Part shown: piece by piece, positions 7,407 to 44,515 of the stretch
Position numbering within the stretch: position 1 is the first letter of the stretch
Layout: each line of letters opens with the position of its first letter
Source: Kitasatospora azatica KCTC 9699
GTDB lineage: Bacteria; Actinomycetota; Actinomycetes; Streptomycetales; Streptomycetaceae
NCBI RefSeq assembly: GCF_000744785.1
Contig: NZ_JQMO01000003.1
Coordinates: 1 to 64,000 of the forward strand
DNA length: 64,000 nucleotides
Reading direction: 5' to 3'
Notes under the pieces: model-generated
What the model was told of the DNA's origin: nothing
The model's input: the letters and a program-made list of their open reading frames with translations, nothing else
The model's database searches: none
Translations under genes and position numbers: made by a program

Positions 7407-7720
7407 TCAGTGCAGGATCGCGTGGGTGACCGCGCAGGAGTTGGTGTCGGCGGACAGCGCCTCGTCCAGGCGCCGCGCTTCGGCGCGGTCCTGGAAGGAG
7501 CCGGCACGCGGATGGATCCGGCCGACCAGACCCGGCCAGGTGGCGGGCGCGCGGGGCGCGCCGTGCCGGTGCTGGTGCTGGTGCTGGTGCTGGTGGAGCT
7601 CGCCGACGCTCGCGGCGGCGACACTGCGGTCGCCGGAGCCGATGACGTCCGTGCCGCCGACGTGGCCGACGGGCGGTCGGTCAACGCGTGGCTGAGTGCG
7701 GACGGATTGGTGCTGGTCAC
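7407..7720 (-). pseudogene. N-terminal fragment of an NB-ARC/TPR STAND protein with a terminal tag
   Basis: The strongest minus frame reads VIGSGDRSVAAASVGEL, a His-Gln run (HQHQHQHQHRH), then WPGLVGRIHPRAGSFQDR and a helix ending CAVTHAILH before a stop at 7407. In actinobacterial NB-ARC/TPR proteins the pattern 'W-P-x-x-VG-x-(I/V)-P-x-x-A-x-x-FQ-x-R' precedes 'V-x-x-x-L-x-G-x-GGVGKT'; here the stop falls just before the P-loop. No start codon exists in this frame. A GTG at 7718-7720 with AGGAG upstream opens the neighbouring frame, suggesting a frameshift. The simple (GGTGCT)n repeat at about 7567-7596 encodes the His-Gln run. Confidence 0.55.
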
Positions 7721-36073: not shown

Positions 36074-36745
36074 GTCGGCCGCGCGGGACGGCTGGTGGCG
36101 CAGCGGTGGCGATGGCCGGGGACGGATGACGGCGGCGACCGCGCGAGTGACCGCACGGCCTGGCGGCCACCAGGACCACTGGGCCGCCTACGAGTGTTCC
36201 GGGCGGGATAGAGGCAACTTGCAGGCCATGACAGCCGCTTCCTCACCTCACGACAGCCAAGATCCACGACCTCGACCATGAGAAGCCCAGCTCACGAGCC
36301 TTTAGGCTCAGCCAACCCGCTGCCACCCAACCCACTGACACCACCCCACCCACTCACACTCTGACTCGGAAAGGGCCGTGTCGAATCCCGGGAGAACTGG
36401 GTTCCGTCTTTCCTGGGTCTGTGGTCGCGGGGGTCTTCTCGGCGCTGGTGCTGGCGGAGGCCGTCGCCCCTTCCGGGTGCGTGCCCTGTCCGGTTCCTGT
36501 GGGTGCGGCAAATCGGGCACCGGCTGCGGTAGGGCGGCGCTACGCTCCATCAGCAGGGCGGACGGGCAGGGTGTCCGCGGCATGTGGGGGTGGGGACGCG
36601 GGTGGATACCGACGGCGCGGCAGCGCAGGACGGGCAGGACAAGCGCAGGACTGATGCCCCACCAGAGTTCCTCCAGGGCTGGCGCGGTGGCGATCCCGCC
36701 GGACCGGTCCCGGAGTCCGATCCCGGACGGGATGGTGGGGCGGGC

Positions 36746-39700
36746 GTGTCGATCTCGGCGAGCAACCGCTCGGCGGCGGCGTACCGCATGGATCATGTGG
36801 AGGTGCACGACCACCAGCACCATCACTACCCGCCGACCCCTGACCCGGTGCCGGGGCTGGTGCGAGTCGGGACGGTACCGCCGCTGGCGTCCGAGGCCGA
36901 CGACTTGGCCCGTACCGTCGACGCGCAGTGGCGGGAGGAGGCCAGGGCCCGCAGTCTGCGGGACCCCCAGGTGGTGCCGCTGACGTGGTCCGCGACCCGG
37001 CGGGCCGTTGCCGACGGCCCGGAGGCGGTGTTCGGCCGGGGCCAGGCCGGACGGATCACGCGGGTCAGCGTCGACGGCAGGCTGGAAGGCGGCTTCGACG
37101 CGGCGGTCGCCTCCCTCGGCGAGGACTTCGGGCGCATCCCCAGCGGGCGGCTGGTGGTGCTCGGCGAGCCGGGCGCCGGGAAGACCGTGCTCGCGCTGCT
37201 GCTGACCCTGGGCCTGCTCGGACGCCGCGCGCCCGGCACCCCGGTGCCGGTCCTGCTGTCCGTGGGCGGCTGGGACCCGGTGCGCAGGTCGCTGGCCGAC
37301 TGGGTGGTCGGCACGCTGGCCGACACCTATTACGCCGGGCGCACCGAGATCCCGCGCCGGCTGCTGCACCAGGGGCTGCTCGTGCCGGTCCTCGACGGCC
37401 TCGACGAGATCCCCGAAGCAGCCCGGCGCAACGCAGTAAAGGAGGTCAACCGCTTCATCGGGACGGACCGTCCCGTGGTGGTGACCTGCAGGTCGGCCGA
37501 GTACGAGGACGTGATCACCGGCGGTTCCCCGGTGCTGCGCCGCGCGCCAGTGGTGGAGGTGCGTCCGGTCCAGGTCGAAGACACCGTGGCCTATCTGGAG
37601 AGCGTGGACTGGCCTGACGGCACCTCGTGGGACCGGGTCGTGCATCACCTGCGCACGGAGTCCGACAGCCCGGTCCACCAGGCCCTGCTCACACCGCTGA
37701 TGATCTCGCTCGCCCGCATGGTGTATGCGCGGTGCGGTGGGGACCCGGCCGAACTGCTCGACCCGGAACGGTTCGAATCCCGGCACGGCATCGAGGACTA
37801 CCTCTCCTCCCGGGTGATCGAGGCCGCCTACGCACCGGACCGGCTACTGTCCGGTGCACCGGCCGACCCGTCGGACCCGGCCGGATTCCCGGGCGCGGGA
37901 AGGCCGTTGACGCCACCCGGTGCCGCGGGCGCGCCCGGTGCGGCCACCGCAGCGGCGGCCGCCGGAGCCGGGTGGGACGCCGAAACCGCCCGGCGCCTGC
38001 TGACGTACCTCGCCCTGTACCTGCATCGCCACGGCGAACGCGACCTGGCCTGGTGGCGGATGTCGGGCCGGCTGCTCCCGGCGTGGGCCGTGCCGGCCGC
38101 GGCGCTCGCCCTCGGTATGGTCATGGCGGCTGTGGCAGTCGTGGGGTCCGGCGTGGCATCGCACCGGGAGGCGCTGCCCGCACTCGGGATCGGCGGCCTG
38201 CTCGTCGGGATCGGCACGGCAGTGGTGGCTGTCGCCCTGCTCGCCGTACCCGAACGACTGCCCGGGCGCCTGTCCTCGGGCCGGGCCGGATCGCTGCGCC
38301 GGCTGCGCCGCGGATTCCTCAAGGGCTTCGGGCTCACCATGGTCCTGACAGTCCCGATGCCGGCCACTTTCGCCCTGATCCTGGCGATCGAGGAGGAGCC
38401 GCTCTCCGTTTACCTGAACTACGTCCAGCTGATCGGCGGCTGCACGGCTTTCGCCTGTGTGGTGGGGCTGGGGTTGGCGGCTCACCACTGGCTCGATTCA
38501 CCGCCCCGCTCGGCGGTCCAGGCGACGCCGGACCTGTTCCTCGTGGAGGACCGGCGGGCGTCGGCCGTCGGCGCGGGGAGCGCGGGGCTGGTGGTGGCGC
38601 TGCTGACCTGGCCCCTGGTCCTGGTGGGCTTCGTGATCGGTGGGATCAGCGGGCGGGCCCTCAGCGGTTGGCCGGGGTGGCCCGACCACTACGACCTGGG
38701 CGGCGTCGTGCGCTCGATGTTCGCGAGCGTGTATACCCCGGGGAGCGGATTCGGTAATTACAGTGCCAAGTTGGTGCTGGTCCCCGTCCTCTCGTCGCTG
38801 GTGCTGGGTGCCGGCTTCACCCTCGCCGCGCTCATGACGAGGGCCTACCCGCGATTCCTGATCATGCTTGCCTATCTGGCGTTCCAGAAGCGGCTGCCCA
38901 TGCGGTTCATGGCGTTCCTGCGCGACGCGCGGAACCGGGGGCTACTGCGGCAGTCGGGAGCGGCGTACCAGTTCCGCCATGCACGGCTGCAGGAGTATCT
39001 GGTGGCCGCTGCGACGGTGCCGGACGGGCAACGATCCGCCGCCCGAGGGGCGGGCCTCGACACGGAGGGCCGCCGGGGCGAAAACCGTGGCCGGATCGGG
39101 GGCCGAGGCCGGGTGGTTGCGCTCGCCTGTGCGGTGCTGGCGGTCGTGGTGCTGGCGACTCCCCTCACCAACCGCCCGACGGACTCGTCCAGTGCCGTAC
39201 TCGGCGGATTCCACACGGGAGTGGAACACGTGGCGTTCGGCCCCGACGGCCGGACCCTGGCCACCGTGGACGGCGGCACGCTGTGGAGCCTCATCGGCAG
39301 CGACACGGCGTACGTAGGAGTGTGGAGCCTCGACGACGGACACCGCATCGCACGGATGGAGTGCTCCGGGTCGCTCGACAGGGTGTTCTTCGCCGGCAAG
39401 GGTCGTGCTCTGGTCGCCGCCGGGCGGACGGGACCCACCGAGCGACCCCGGCGCTACATTCAGGTGTGGGAGGCCGGCTCCGGCACCGCGCTGAGCGGAC
39501 CCGACGGCGGGGAATCTGCCGCCTACGCGGGACTGGGCGCGGACGACCAGGTAAGCCTGCTCAGCATCGCGGCCGACCCCGACGCCTTGACATTGCGCGA
39601 CGCCCGGGACGGGCACACGATCAGCCAGCTGACCGGGCCGAGCGCGCGGGGCGCTACGTCCGCCGTCCTCAGCCCTGACGCGCGCTTCGTGGTCACCACG

Positions 39701-40309
39701 ACCCGGAATTCCCTGATGCAGCTCTGGCGGGTGGCCGACGGCCACCCGATCGGTGACGCAGGCACCGGCTTCGAGCCCACAGCCTCCTTCAGCGCCGACT
39801 CCTCCGTTGTGGCGATGGTTGCGACGGACGGGAAGAAGGTCGAAGTACGGGACACCTTCCAGGGACGGATCATCAGCACCTTGCAGACTGAAAGCGCCAG
39901 TGCTAGCCAAGTGCTGCTCAGCCCGGACGGCAGTACGGCGGCGACCGACACCTACTCCGACGTCCAACTGTGGAACACGGCAACGGGCAGTAAGATCGGC
40001 AGCCCGCTTGCCGGCACGGAGCCTGACACGTCGGACGGGCACCACGACGCCGTGATGCGCTTCAGCCCGGACGGGCGCACGCTCGCGACGACGGTGGGCC
40101 CGGACCTGGAGCAGATCCGGCTGTGGAACACCGCGGACGGACAGCCGATCGGCCCTGTTCGGTCCGGTCACGTCAAAGCGGTCAACGACATCGCGTTCAG
40201 CCCCGACGGACTCACCCTGGCCACAGCATCCGACGACAAGACCGTACGGCTGTGGCGGCTCGACACTCTGGGGCTGCGGGAACGGGCGGGTGCACTCGGC
40301 AAGAGGTGA
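36746..40309 (+). CDS. Membrane-embedded NACHT-WD40 STAND ATPase (1187 aa)
   Basis: Signal-transduction ATPase of STAND type. Order: N-terminal tag VSISASNRSAAAYRMDHV followed by a His-rich run (HDHQHHHYPP); linker VRVGTVPPLASEADDLA; NACHT with Walker A GEPGAGKT (residues 140-147) and Walker B LDGLDEIPEA (about 216-225); the helical region to about 440; six predicted membrane segments between about 445 and 700; one more at about 789-806; then a WD40-type propeller from about 825 to the end (last blade DIAFSPDGLTLATASDDKTV, RLWRL). GTG 36746 is chosen because the tag begins there; ATG 36584 would add 54 low-complexity residues. The likely role is threat sensing by the propeller with NTP-driven oligomerisation at the membrane (family inference). 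Confidence 0.88.
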   Translation: MSISASNRSAAAYRMDHVEVHDHQHHHYPPTPDPVPGLVRVGTVPPLASEADDLARTVDAQWREEARARSLRDPQVVPLTWSATRRAVADGPEAVFGRGQAGRITRVSVDGRLEGGFDAAVASLGEDFGRIPSGRLVVLGEPGAGKTVLALLLTLGLLGRRAPGTPVPVLLSVGGWDPVRRSLADWVVGTLADTYYAGRTEIPRRLLHQGLLVPVLDGLDEIPEAARRNAVKEVNRFIGTDRPVVVTCRSAEYEDVITGGSPVLRRAPVVEVRPVQVEDTVAYLESVDWPDGTSWDRVVHHLRTESDSPVHQALLTPLMISLARMVYARCGGDPAELLDPERFESRHGIEDYLSSRVIEAAYAPDRLLSGAPADPSDPAGFPGAGRPLTPPGAAGAPGAATAAAAAGAGWDAETARRLLTYLALYLHRHGERDLAWWRMSGRLLPAWAVPAAALALGMVMAAVAVVGSGVASHREALPALGIGGLLVGIGTAVVAVALLAVPERLPGRLSSGRAGSLRRLRRGFLKGFGLTMVLTVPMPATFALILAIEEEPLSVYLNYVQLIGGCTAFACVVGLGLAAHHWLDSPPRSAVQATPDLFLVEDRRASAVGAGSAGLVVALLTWPLVLVGFVIGGISGRALSGWPGWPDHYDLGGVVRSMFASVYTPGSGFGNYSAKLVLVPVLSSLVLGAGFTLAALMTRAYPRFLIMLAYLAFQKRLPMRFMAFLRDARNRGLLRQSGAAYQFRHARLQEYLVAAATVPDGQRSAARGAGLDTEGRRGENRGRIGGRGRVVALACAVLAVVVLATPLTNRPTDSSSAVLGGFHTGVEHVAFGPDGRTLATVDGGTLWSLIGSDTAYVGVWSLDDGHRIARMECSGSLDRVFFAGKGRALVAAGRTGPTERPRRYIQVWEAGSGTALSGPDGGESAAYAGLGADDQVSLLSIAADPDALTLRDARDGHTISQLTGPSARGATSAVLSPDARFVVTTTRNSLMQLWRVADGHPIGDAGTGFEPTASFSADSSVVAMVATDGKKVEVRDTFQGRIISTLQTESASASQVLLSPDGSTAATDTYSDVQLWNTATGSKIGSPLAGTEPDTSDGHHDAVMRFSPDGRTLATTVGPDLEQIRLWNTADGQPIGPVRSGHVKAVNDIAFSPDGLTLATASDDKTVRLWRLDTLGLRERAGALGKR

Positions 40310-41351
<1,042 letters not shown>

Positions 41352-41828
41352 GTGGTTCCGGGTGTGGAGGTCGCGGTGGGGTACATCTTCGCCTGGGCCG
41401 TACGCAAGGCGCGGCTGGTCGCCGGCCGGGCGGACGGGGAGGTGGACCGGGCGCTTGGGGCCGGGATGGATCGGGTCCACGACGTGGTCAGCCGCAAGCT
41501 CGGGCAGGATGCCGCGCTGGTCCAGGTCGTGGAGGAGGCGAATGCCGACCCTGCCCGGCTGTCGGAGGACTCGCGGCAGTGGCTGGCGCTCAGCCTGAAC
41601 AACGCTGCGAAGCGTGACGCGGAGTTCGCCGCTGAACTGCTCGCCGCGGTGGAGGCGGCCCGGGTCGCAGAGCGCGCCGCCCGGGTGCAGGCGAGCGGAG
41701 ACGGCGTGGCAATCGGCGGAGGCGTGTCCATGCATGCGGAGAGCGGGTCCGTCGTGGCCGTCCGGATCGACGGGCCAGTGACGATCGGTTCGCCGGCCCC
41801 TTCCCCGCCGGGGGCGGCCCAGGGCTGA
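41352..41828 (+). CDS. Small tag-bearing companion protein (158 aa)
   Basis: GTG start with GAGGGGG 5 nt upstream; strong codon bias. The N-terminus VPGVEVAVGYIFAWAVRKAR is a short amphipathic or membrane-surface helix. The middle is helical (ADGEVDRALGAGMDRVHDVV, SEDSRQWLALSLNNAAKRD, AAELLAAVEAARVAE). The C-terminus is strand-like and repetitive: ASGDGVAIGG then VSMHAESGSVVAVRIDGPV. This matches the N-terminal tag of the STAND protein at V, S, A, S, A, R and D positions. In actinomycetes similar short proteins are annotated loosely as 'chromosome partitioning'; no such function is evident. It is probably an adaptor or effector partner of the STAND ATPase (inference). Confidence 0.75.
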   Translation: MVPGVEVAVGYIFAWAVRKARLVAGRADGEVDRALGAGMDRVHDVVSRKLGQDAALVQVVEEANADPARLSEDSRQWLALSLNNAAKRDAEFAAELLAAVEAARVAERAARVQASGDGVAIGGGVSMHAESGSVVAVRIDGPVTIGSPAPSPPGAAQG

Positions 41829-42071
41829 CCGCACCCGGCACACCCACCCCGGCCACCGCCACCGGTCCGGCCACGGGAACGTAGCCCACCACCCACATCA
41901 CCGCCGCCAAGAGCAGCATCGCCGGGTACATCATCGGCGAGGCACACGTCCACCATCACGCCCTATCCGGCACAGGCAGGTGCTCGAGCCGCCGTTCAGG
42001 TCGATCCGCAGAAGCGCCGGCCGTCGGACCGGGCACCAGAACGGGCCGAAGCGGGGTCTCTCCCGGTTGGG

Positions 42072-43063
42072 TCAACCAATGACGGTCTCGACGTGCCGGG
42101 TGAGCGCGTCCAAGAGGGCGGTCTGCTGGTCGGTCAGCTTCCCGTCGGTGCGGGCCTTCTCCTGCTTGCGCAGCCAGGTGCCGGGCCGGAATGCCGGGTC
42201 GTCGCCGAGGCCGGTGCGGTTGGCGGGGCCGTCAAGGGTGCCGCCGGCGGCAAGGTAGGCGAGCAGGCGCCGGTAGGAGCGGTTCCAGTCCGGCTCCAGG
42301 CGCCACAGCTCGTCCAGCGCGTCCAGCTTGGCGGCCTGGTCGGCGGTGAGGTTGTCGGCCTTGCGCTGGCGGCGCATCCACGCGCCGACCGCGTAGTCGT
42401 CGACCTTCGCGGTCGCGGGGATCGCGAGGTGGCCGTGCCGGCGGTGGAAGGCGGCGGCGTAGGCATGGCCGCGCTCCCAGACGTTGGCGTTCTTCGACCA
42501 GATCATGCCGAGCGCGTCCAGCTCCCAGATCCGGGCGGCGTCGAGCAGGCCCTGGCCGTGGAGGTGGCGCTGGCGGGTGAGCCAGGAGATCAGCTCGGCG
42601 TTCTTCGTCTTGTCGGTGGGGTCGAGGTGGCCGCGCTCGATGTGGAACGCGGTAGCGACGGCGTGCATGCGCTGCCACTCGACCGCACGCGGGTTGAACG
42701 CGCGCAGCTTCACGGTCTGCAGGATCCGGGCGGCGTGCTGCCGAGGTTGATCTTCAGCCACTCGACCGGCGACCCGACTGGGGCCGACTGCTGCTCGCCC
42801 TCCCCCGCTGCGGCGGCCTCGCCCTCGGCCGGCTTGGCCGCGGTAGTGTGCGCGGTGCCCTGGGAGCGGTGGGCGCGCAGCTCGGTGATCCGGCCGACCA
42901 CCCGGGCATCGTGCGCGGCCAAGGCCCGCAGGACCCGCCAAATCGTGCGGAACGAGCTGGCCTCGATCTCGGTGTCGGCCTCCGCCTTCACAGCCTCGCC
43001 GGCGTCGTGGACCTCGGCCGGATCCGCGGCGGCGGTGTCGTCGGCCGCCACTCCGAAGATGCT
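42072..43063 (-). pseudogene. Helicase-associated repeat region of an SF2 helicase, truncated and frameshifted
   Basis: Three or more helicase-associated (PF03457-like) repeats are visible on the minus strand: EWQRMHAVATAFHIERGHLD, WERGHAYAAAFHRRHGHLAI, VGAWMRRQRKADNLTADQAA and PDWNRSYRRLLAYLAAGGTL, ending at a proper stop (HVETVIG). Upstream residues (IEASSFRTIWRVLRALAAHD, PVEWLKINLG) lie in another frame; one shift at about 42740 joins them. The helicase core is absent, cut at about 43063 where a transposon ATPase fragment begins on the other strand. Confidence 0.7.
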
Positions 43064-43684
43064 GGCCATGGAGTTCGCCCGGTTCATCGGGCTGCCGCTG
43101 CCGTCCCGTTACAGCCAGGTCGAGGTCACCAACAAGGTCTGCGATCTGCTCTGCACTCTCGGCTGCCGTCTCGTGCTTATCGACGAGCTGCACAATCTCG
43201 ACATCGGTACACGGGTCGGCGCCGAGGCATCCGACCAGATCAAGTACCTCTCCGAACGGATCCCGGCGACCTTCGTCCTGGCGGGCGTCGACGTCGAGGG
43301 CACCGGCCTGTTCGCCGGACGGCGCGGCGGACAGATCGCCAGCCGCTACAGCCTCACCCCCACCAGTGCCTTCCGGCACACGACCGCAGACCAGCGCGGG
43401 CCTGGCAGTCCCTCGTCGCGACGCTCGAGGAATCGCTGCGGCCGCACGCCCACCGGCCGGGCACCTTGCTGAAACTCAGCAGCTACCTCCACGACCGCAC
43501 CGGCGGCATGATCGGCAGCCTGTCCCATCTCGTCCGCGAAGCCGCCCTGGACGCCATCCTCGACGGCAGCGAAAGAATCACCAAAGCCTCGCTGGAGCGG
43601 GTCGACCTGGACGAGAACGCCGAGCAGCAGAACCTCCCGCGCGCACGTCGGCGCCGGGCCCGCAACGAGAAACGCACCGCGTGA
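43055..43684 (+). pseudogene. TniB/TnsC-like transposition AAA ATPase, 5'-truncated and frameshifted
   Basis: The frame reads MLAMEFARFIGLPLPSRYSQ, VTNKVCDLLCTLGCRLVLID and ELHNLDIGTRVGAEASDQIK (Walker B VLIDE), then RIPATFVLAGVDVEGTGLF. The Walker A part is missing upstream. Near 43398 the frame shifts and continues AWQSLVATLEESLRPHAHRP, SYLHDRTGGMIGSLSHLVRE and AALDAILDGSERITKASLER to TGA 43684. The stop overlaps the GTG of the TniQ gene, preserving the operon structure of Tn5053/Tn7-like elements. Confidence 0.75.
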
Positions 43685-44515
43685 CCACCCGGCTGCGAGC
43701 CCTGCCGCTCACGCCACCGCCCGTCCACGGTGAAACCATCGGCTCCTATCTGAACCGGCTCGCCGACGCCAATCACCTCACCATCGGGCACCTGTCGTCC
43801 CTGATCGGCCTGTCGCGACGCCACCGCCGTGGCGACAACCGAGTCGGCTACTGGACCCCCGAGGGACTGTTGCGGCTCGCAGCCCTGACCGGCCGGAACC
43901 CGTCCTCCCTGATCCACTCGATGCCCCCGCTCTGCACAATCGGCGACCTGATCCGGCGTCTGCCGCTGTCCGCCACCGACGAAGTCATCGAGCCTCGGCG
44001 CCGCCCGGCCTGTCGGCTCTGCATGGCCCGCCGCCACGTCCACGGTCTCGTCATCCGCAGCACCCCTCACCATGAAGGCGTCTGCCACCGGCATCACCGA
44101 TGGCTCCTCGGAGACGAGCAACACGGGCTCACCCGACTGCCCGAGATCCTTCGGGCCAACCGACGACATCAGCGGATCGCCCGCCGAGGCACCCACCCGT
44201 CCACCGCGCTGGCCTACGTCGATGCCCGCGACCGCCTGATCAAGTGGTTCACCAACGAGGTCAGCGGCCCGCCGCTTCAGCAGCGTTGGAACCATCGCCT
44301 CGACGTGCTCGGCGAGGACCCGTTCGGCGATCCCCACCGTCCCTCCGAGGCCCGGATCGAACTGGTCACCTATCCCGAAGCCGTCGTTCTCACCAGCCTG
44401 TTCGCCGCACCGCACTGGCGAGACCACCCCCAGCTGCCTGCCGAGGCAGCACGACGCTGGGCATCCCTCCTCAACAACTGTGTGATCTTCAGCGGCAGTT
44501 GCCCACTGCCGGCGG
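43681..44515 (+). pseudogene. TniQ-domain transposition protein, 3'-truncated
   Basis: GTG start in GTGA overlap with the ATPase fragment. It begins VTTRLRALPLTPPPVHGETI and continues GSYLNRLADANHLTIGHLSS, the canonical TniQ N-terminus. It then has the zinc-finger block CRLCMARRHVHGLVIRSTPH with H-x-x-x-C-x-x-H. The coding signal stops at about 44515 (ARRWASLLNNC), and the frame then runs into the start of the nucleotidyltransferase gene out of phase. No TnsA/TnsB/TniA-like transposase is seen. Confidence 0.75.

Follow-up and report, generated by a model that had tools for sequence, protein, structure and literature searches.

A receptor relic in Kitasatospora azatica points to a two-gene NLR system whose receptor is likely made by −1 frameshifting from its companion gene

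We analysed a stretch of 64,000 nucleotides from Kitasatospora azatica KCTC 9699 (contig NZ_JQMO01000003.1, positions 1 to 64,000; hereafter the window), in which a short frame on the minus strand, at 7407-7718, resembles the start of a signalling receptor of the NLR (NOD-like receptor) type. Sequence comparison identifies this frame as the remnant of an NB-ARC/TPR receptor, a bacterial NLR, surviving as a pseudogene cut at both ends. With good confidence, we read it as the relic of a two-gene NLR system in which a small companion gene precedes the receptor gene and the receptor is likely made by −1 frameshifting from the companion. The relic and its parts are:

7407-7718, minus strand: NB-ARC (TPR-type) NLR relic, a frame without a start codon and with a TGA just before the P-loop position
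7596-7646, minus strand: tag of the SVAA class, VIGSGDRSVAAASVGEL
7563-7595, minus strand: His-rich run HQHQHQHQHRH; relatives of both nucleoside triphosphatase (NTPase) classes, NB-ARC and NACHT, have HQHHH, HQH or HHH at this place
7479-7538, minus strand: linker WPGLVGRIHPRAGSFQDRAE; intact NB-ARC relatives have a conserved WPhqVGxIPPxAxxFQxRAE

An earlier note on this DNA had described, at 7407-7720, a tag followed by a His-rich run and then a linker, and proposed that they open a broken NB-ARC STAND protein. The order holds on the minus strand, where VIGSGDRSVAAASVGEL is followed by HQHQHQHQHRH, then by GAPRAPATWPGLVGRIHPRAGSFQDRAE and, further on, THAILH and a TGA at 7409-7407; each of the three parts can be aligned with intact relatives. 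The proposed identity is borne out as well, since these relatives carry NB-ARC, DUF7779 and TPR domains after the linker (Pfam; PF00931 E 4.5e-9 at locus L143 and 2e-9 at locus L158). The relic ends, at CAVTHAILH*, at the exact point where intact relatives have their P-loop (VLTGMGGVGKTQLAA; GMGGVGKTQLAA), so that the residues following THAIL in those proteins (GMGGVGKTQLAA) are indeed a P-loop. The relic itself lacks the P-loop, no NTPase remains were found downstream of it in any frame, and its whole frame holds no ATG, GTG or TTG. GC content by codon position is coding-like (81/54/90 %). A coding-like frame, relatives that run on into a P-loop and the lack of any NTPase sequence together make the relic a pseudogene remnant. 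Its neighbours are a LysR gene on one side and, on the other, a membrane-protein gene that has no homologue in 69 congeners; a contig end lies about 7.4 kb away.

Could the frame instead be a chance opening in GC-rich DNA, its likeness to a NACHT protein reflecting glycine, alanine and histidine composition? Within the whole 8.27-Mb genome, the best other match of the relic is the NACHT protein of the window (E 0.0024). The likeness of the relic to the N-terminus of that protein gave p 0.0005 in a shuffle test and just p 0.019 once both His runs were masked; it is therefore partly compositional, which is the point in favour of a chance frame. Matches of the relic to other genomes decide against it. 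At E<=0.001 they occur in 17 of 70 genomes of the genus (its own counted), the best being an intact NB-ARC receptor with 57 % identity over 76 residues (E 4e-16). There is a match at the DNA level (E 7e-20), and an NB-ARC profile built without the relic detects it with E 2e-13 over model positions 7-63, ending before the P-loop. Given these homologues and the coding-like codon positions, a chance origin is vanishingly improbable and we discarded it.

The tag of the relic (class consensus VxAxxGSVAAGxIxxx) recurs well beyond NB-ARC proteins. We built a position-specific scoring matrix solely from the NB-ARC tags of other genomes and used 669 real protein segments as background. Against this matrix the relic scored 13.7 bits (p ~0.005), and the tags of NACHT loci L157, L170 and L169 scored 20-27 bits, all far above typical segments; tails of other clear tag classes fell below zero. 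The other tags of the window are each weak individually (NACHT protein p 0.036, companion p 0.024). All these p-values are conservative, because several of the 669 segments proved to be true tags, three real tag-bearing receptors standing among the top decoys. By itself, the mutual likeness of relic, NACHT protein and companion within the window is weak; it convinces only once relatives are included. That the tag is a module and not a chance match, as the earlier note had held, agrees with the recovery of the relic, NACHT relatives and companion tails by a profile made from NB-ARC tags alone. The tag profile also gave a chaplin-like segment (a functional amyloid) on the plus strand of locus L142 a score of 13.9 bits, matching that of the relic, possibly through composition only.

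Judged by these alignments, the tag is common to NB-ARC receptors, NACHT receptors and companion tails. The suggestion that NACHT and NB-ARC proteins share an N-terminal module stands as regards the sharing, since the same tag class also heads the receptors of L157, L169 and L146, which are NACHT proteins by Pfam; the word N-terminal probably does not, the receptors being mostly start-less. Most NACHT relatives that lack a companion and have a readable N-terminus begin with unrelated sequence, which indicates that the tag goes with the partner and not with the NTPase. Several classes are exchangeable in tails and receptor tags: SVAA, GNTFxGPTAxxxGDHxxQxNxF, GTFHGPVxGKGxQHxxxG, the RHIM-like NTISGGxxxGxVVQ, and GRSYQAGRDM.

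A genome-wide scan for the companion family returned 46 loci, 31 of them with a P-loop open reading frame (ORF) downstream. The companion stands directly upstream of intact receptors, which are NB-ARC proteins in some genomes and NACHT proteins in others. Across the 31 companion-NLR pairs, the similarity of tail and tag was 50.0 for cognate partners vs 33.5 for swapped ones (permutation p 5e-5), and SVAA tails occurred beside receptors that also bear SVAA tags (Fisher 2e-5 to 2e-6). Companion tail and receptor tag, as read from their sequences, covary. The tag unit noticed earlier in the companion of the window recurs across its family, in which the tail usually holds it twice, against a single copy in the receptor. 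In genome G068 (L053/L070, G068:C5), companion and NB-ARC receptor form one continuous ORF, a natural fusion.

An AlphaFold2 model of the companion has five helices (mean pLDDT, the model's per-residue confidence score, 74), of which the first, residues 5-23, is hydrophobic; the tail falls below 50. Pfam, NCBIfam and PADLOC gave no match for the window companion, and fold searches gave generic helical-bundle matches only, with none at E 0.001 or below in Foldseek and VIA as the best at Z 5.6. The plant NRC3 resistosome was considered as a fold relative and set aside, its Z of 4.5 being not above background. Plasmid records held short DNA matches only, together with companion matches that carry no annotation. 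A second companion-family gene lies in the same genome (G000:C2:141543-141965); no NLR was recognised directly downstream of it, and the next frame is membrane-protein-like.

The junction between SVAA-class companions and their receptors has the layout of a recoding site. The receptor tag starts 44-65 nt past the companion stop and lies at 2 mod 3 from that stop in 16 of 17 pairs, the exception (L147) having a disrupted companion frame. From the slip site to +68, no ATG, GTG or TTG occurs in 17 of 23 SVAA loci. The candidate element consists of C_CCU, a 5-nt spacer and a stem of 10-11 bp spanning the companion stop. Wobble entropy in the last 10 companion codons is 0.49, vs a simulated expectation of 1.37+-0.07, and codons -25 to -16 show no synonymous constraint. 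The stem covaries: 40 sequences contain 43 doubly changed cells, a value reached in 0/500 shuffles, and at positions -9:+3, 17 sequences pair C with G and 16 pair G with C. In 19 new sequences pairing was 188, vs 172.5+-3.2 in partner shuffles (0/5000). As a sequence pattern, C_CCU with its spacer and covarying stem is the textbook architecture of a −1 frameshift signal.

A covariance model of this short, 61-nt element matched 79 sites at E<=0.01, in 9 genera and up to 61 of 298 family genomes; the 30 sites that we inspected were among the strongest, and the weaker ones may include chance matches. All 30 end a tag-tailed ORF. The −1 frame is open into a long receptor-like frame in 28, with a recognisable P-loop in 23. 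Nineteen of the 30 were new, and several of these lie behind an effector domain of quite another kind (ALAAAGGTAVVQAAGTDAW); the element thus travels with the tag and not with the BELL-like companion domain. In loci of other tag classes the element was found in 0/16; in most of them an ATG or GTG coincides with the companion stop or follows it closely. Rfam holds no match for it. Element and SVAA tails were also seen behind a different small effector domain (ALAAAGGTAVVQAAGTDAWTGLR) at L201, L210, L212, L213, L216, L218, L222 and L226. The tail class TGDATADGxGSxASTGVDYS, present as repeats at L154, L155, L164 and L166, mostly has CTGA stops, and its receptor frame is not simply −1.

The sequence pattern makes it probable that frameshifting produces the receptor, and several observations bear on this reading, some of them limiting it. 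A CCT codon stands at -27 from the companion stop in 23/23 loci, but the first set of 23-24 loci was picked by that very feature, later loci being found by a model containing it; fairer tests are the negatives from other classes and a comparison of unselected tails, where CCT, a minor proline codon (9.5 % usage), occurs at -27 in 22/28 SVAA tails and 2/33 others. C_CCT is invariant (40/40 sites), and the full heptamer A_AAC_CCT is present in 29/40, 11/40 keeping C_CCT alone. The relic itself has no adjoining companion and no element nearby, so its placing in the frameshift class rests on tag and linker. Finally, the companion stop is CTGA in 39/40 SVAA sequences, and the CTG sits in the receptor frame.

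This last point is the core of a different explanation, in which the receptor gene is simply a normal second cistron, translated by termination-reinitiation from the CTG that overlaps the stop codon of the companion, with the hairpin and CCCT serving in coupling or arising as by-products of two-frame coding. Other tag classes do start at ATGA or GTGA, in the same frame and with a similar MTG... sequence. Initiation at this place should, however, select ATG or GTG as it does there, and not CTG in 39/40. Reinitiation also fails to account for the invariance of CCT, a minor codon, for the constant 5-nt length of the spacer, for the stem and for the synonymous constraint upstream of the CTG, and the natural fusion in G068 joins companion and receptor in one ORF. 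We therefore consider reinitiation improbable. On the frameshift reading, the start-less receptors, apparently shifted −1 from their companions, place the tag probably at the joint of a companion::NLR fusion rather than at an N-terminus.

We infer frameshifting itself, amyloid formation and cell death. The upstream gene would encode a small helical, probably membrane-acting effector with a disordered tail that carries two tag copies. About nine codons before the companion stop, the ribosome would slip by −1 on C_CCU (mostly A_AAC_CCU) with the stem-loop over the stop ahead, tRNA-Pro re-pairing with CCC in place of CCU and, at sites that have its codon, tRNA-Asn with AAA in place of AAC. Most ribosomes would yield free effector and some an effector::NLR fusion, a stoichiometry like that of Gag and Gag-Pol. 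The receptor, with its one tag copy, would oligomerise through its NTPase on sensing a trigger, and its tags would then serve as templates on which the tags of free effector assemble into a signalling amyloid, the mode of action put forward for BELL/BASS pairs. It is thus likely that actinobacterial NLRs of this kind, whether NB-ARC or NACHT, are −1 programmed-frameshift extensions of their own effector genes, that a single mRNA fixes the proportion of free effector to effector::receptor fusion, and that the tag is at once a covalent and an amyloid joint. If so, the system would reveal one way in which the balance between sensor and effector protein is set in bacterial immunity, would link recoding to NLR signalling, and would account for the start-less or broken appearance of these receptors in genomes. 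For signalling specificity, the exchange of tag classes between effectors and the two NTPase types would provide a natural test set.

The layout of two units on the effector and one on the NLR has a fungal parallel in HET-S/NWD2, in which the effector bears two pseudo-repeats and the NLR one, and signalling proceeds by amyloid templating. The likeness is one of layout; unlike the pairs described here, the fungal genes are separate and not coupled by frameshifting. In bacteria, BASS4 is often repeated on the Bell side, according to one study (PMC8086366). BELL-BASS amyloid signalosomes, described by Dyrka and colleagues (J Mol Biol 2020, summarised in PMC7889193, PMC8086366, PMC12261475), are two-gene clusters of filamentous bacteria in which an NLR and a small helical effector have a common motif, C-terminal in one and N-terminal in the other. 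The companion-NLR pairs are, by analogy, of BELL/BASS architecture, likened by architecture and motif pairing and not by assignment to the families BASS1-10. In both, a small effector, helical and with a hydrophobic helix, bears a C-terminal motif, the adjacent NLR bears the matching motif, and there are several interchangeable motif families. SVAA-class pairs differ in that effector and receptor are joined by a candidate −1 frameshift, and in the usual two units of the effector tail against one in the receptor.

The tag might instead have nothing to do with amyloid and act as a linker for structure or oligomerisation, for instance as a short beta-hairpin motif by which effector and receptor dock. 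Such a linker would fit a tail for which the monomer model shows no structure (pLDDT below 50). Against it, several unrelated tag classes, including the RHIM-like NTISGGxxxGxVVQAG, are swapped at the same position with partner matching, and position-swapped, partner-matched motifs are the signature by which BASS pairs are defined (PMC7889193). A non-amyloid linker is accordingly possible and rather unlikely; an amyloid joint is the reading that we prefer.

For the proposed recoding there are other precedents. The phage G/GT genes are a known case of −1 frameshifting. Among bacterial genes with programmed −1 frameshifts are dnaX, copA and insertion sequence (IS) elements (PMC5009743). All of these resemble the SVAA junction in having a slip site, a short spacer and a 3' stem-loop, with the result that some of the ribosomes yield another product; the difference lies in a slip site of C_CCU / A_AAC_CCU placed at the junction of effector and receptor. 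The literature searched reports no frameshifting for NLR, NB-ARC or STAND genes, which suggests that a frameshift-made NLR fusion is new relative to it; two-gene tag pairing has already been published as BELL/BASS.

Further members of the system lie elsewhere in the window:

41283-41828, plus strand: companion (BELL-like) gene, with a helical domain of ~110 aa whose first helix is hydrophobic, followed by a disordered tail that holds two tag units
41688-41789, plus strand: double tag tail of the companion, QASGDGVAIGGGVS + MHAESGSVVAVRIDGPVTIG
41789-41849, plus strand: candidate −1 frameshift element, C_CCT (CCT codon 41799-41801) with 5-nt spacer, covariance-model E 9.8e-7
41897-41962, plus strand: decayed tag of a second receptor, ITAAKSSIAGYIIGEAHVHHHA, 71 nt past the companion stop and in the −1 frame
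36584-40309, plus strand: intact NACHT-WD40 protein, with a tag-like region at 36752-36799, a His run to 36826 and a P-loop from ~37151

The element is the only match in this genome, and its stem pairs 41807-41817 with 41829-41839 across the stop at 41826. An in-frame TAG at 41882-41884 cuts the second decayed tag off from the companion. The NACHT protein has its own GTG start, a weaker tag and no companion directly upstream. The window therefore holds two receptor relics of the SVAA class, one companion and one weaker-tagged NACHT protein. Directly after the second decayed tag, at ~42070-43700, remnants that by eye resemble a TniB-type transposition gene are perhaps the cause of receptor loss. 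The same genome also contains a RHIM-like pair (G000:C3, ~5230.6-5234.5 kb; L192, 1134-1724 and 2786-5008), made up of a BELL-like gene with a NTISGGTQHGPALQG tail and, ~1 kb downstream of it, an NB-ARC gene with NSISGGTYYGPVVQAG.
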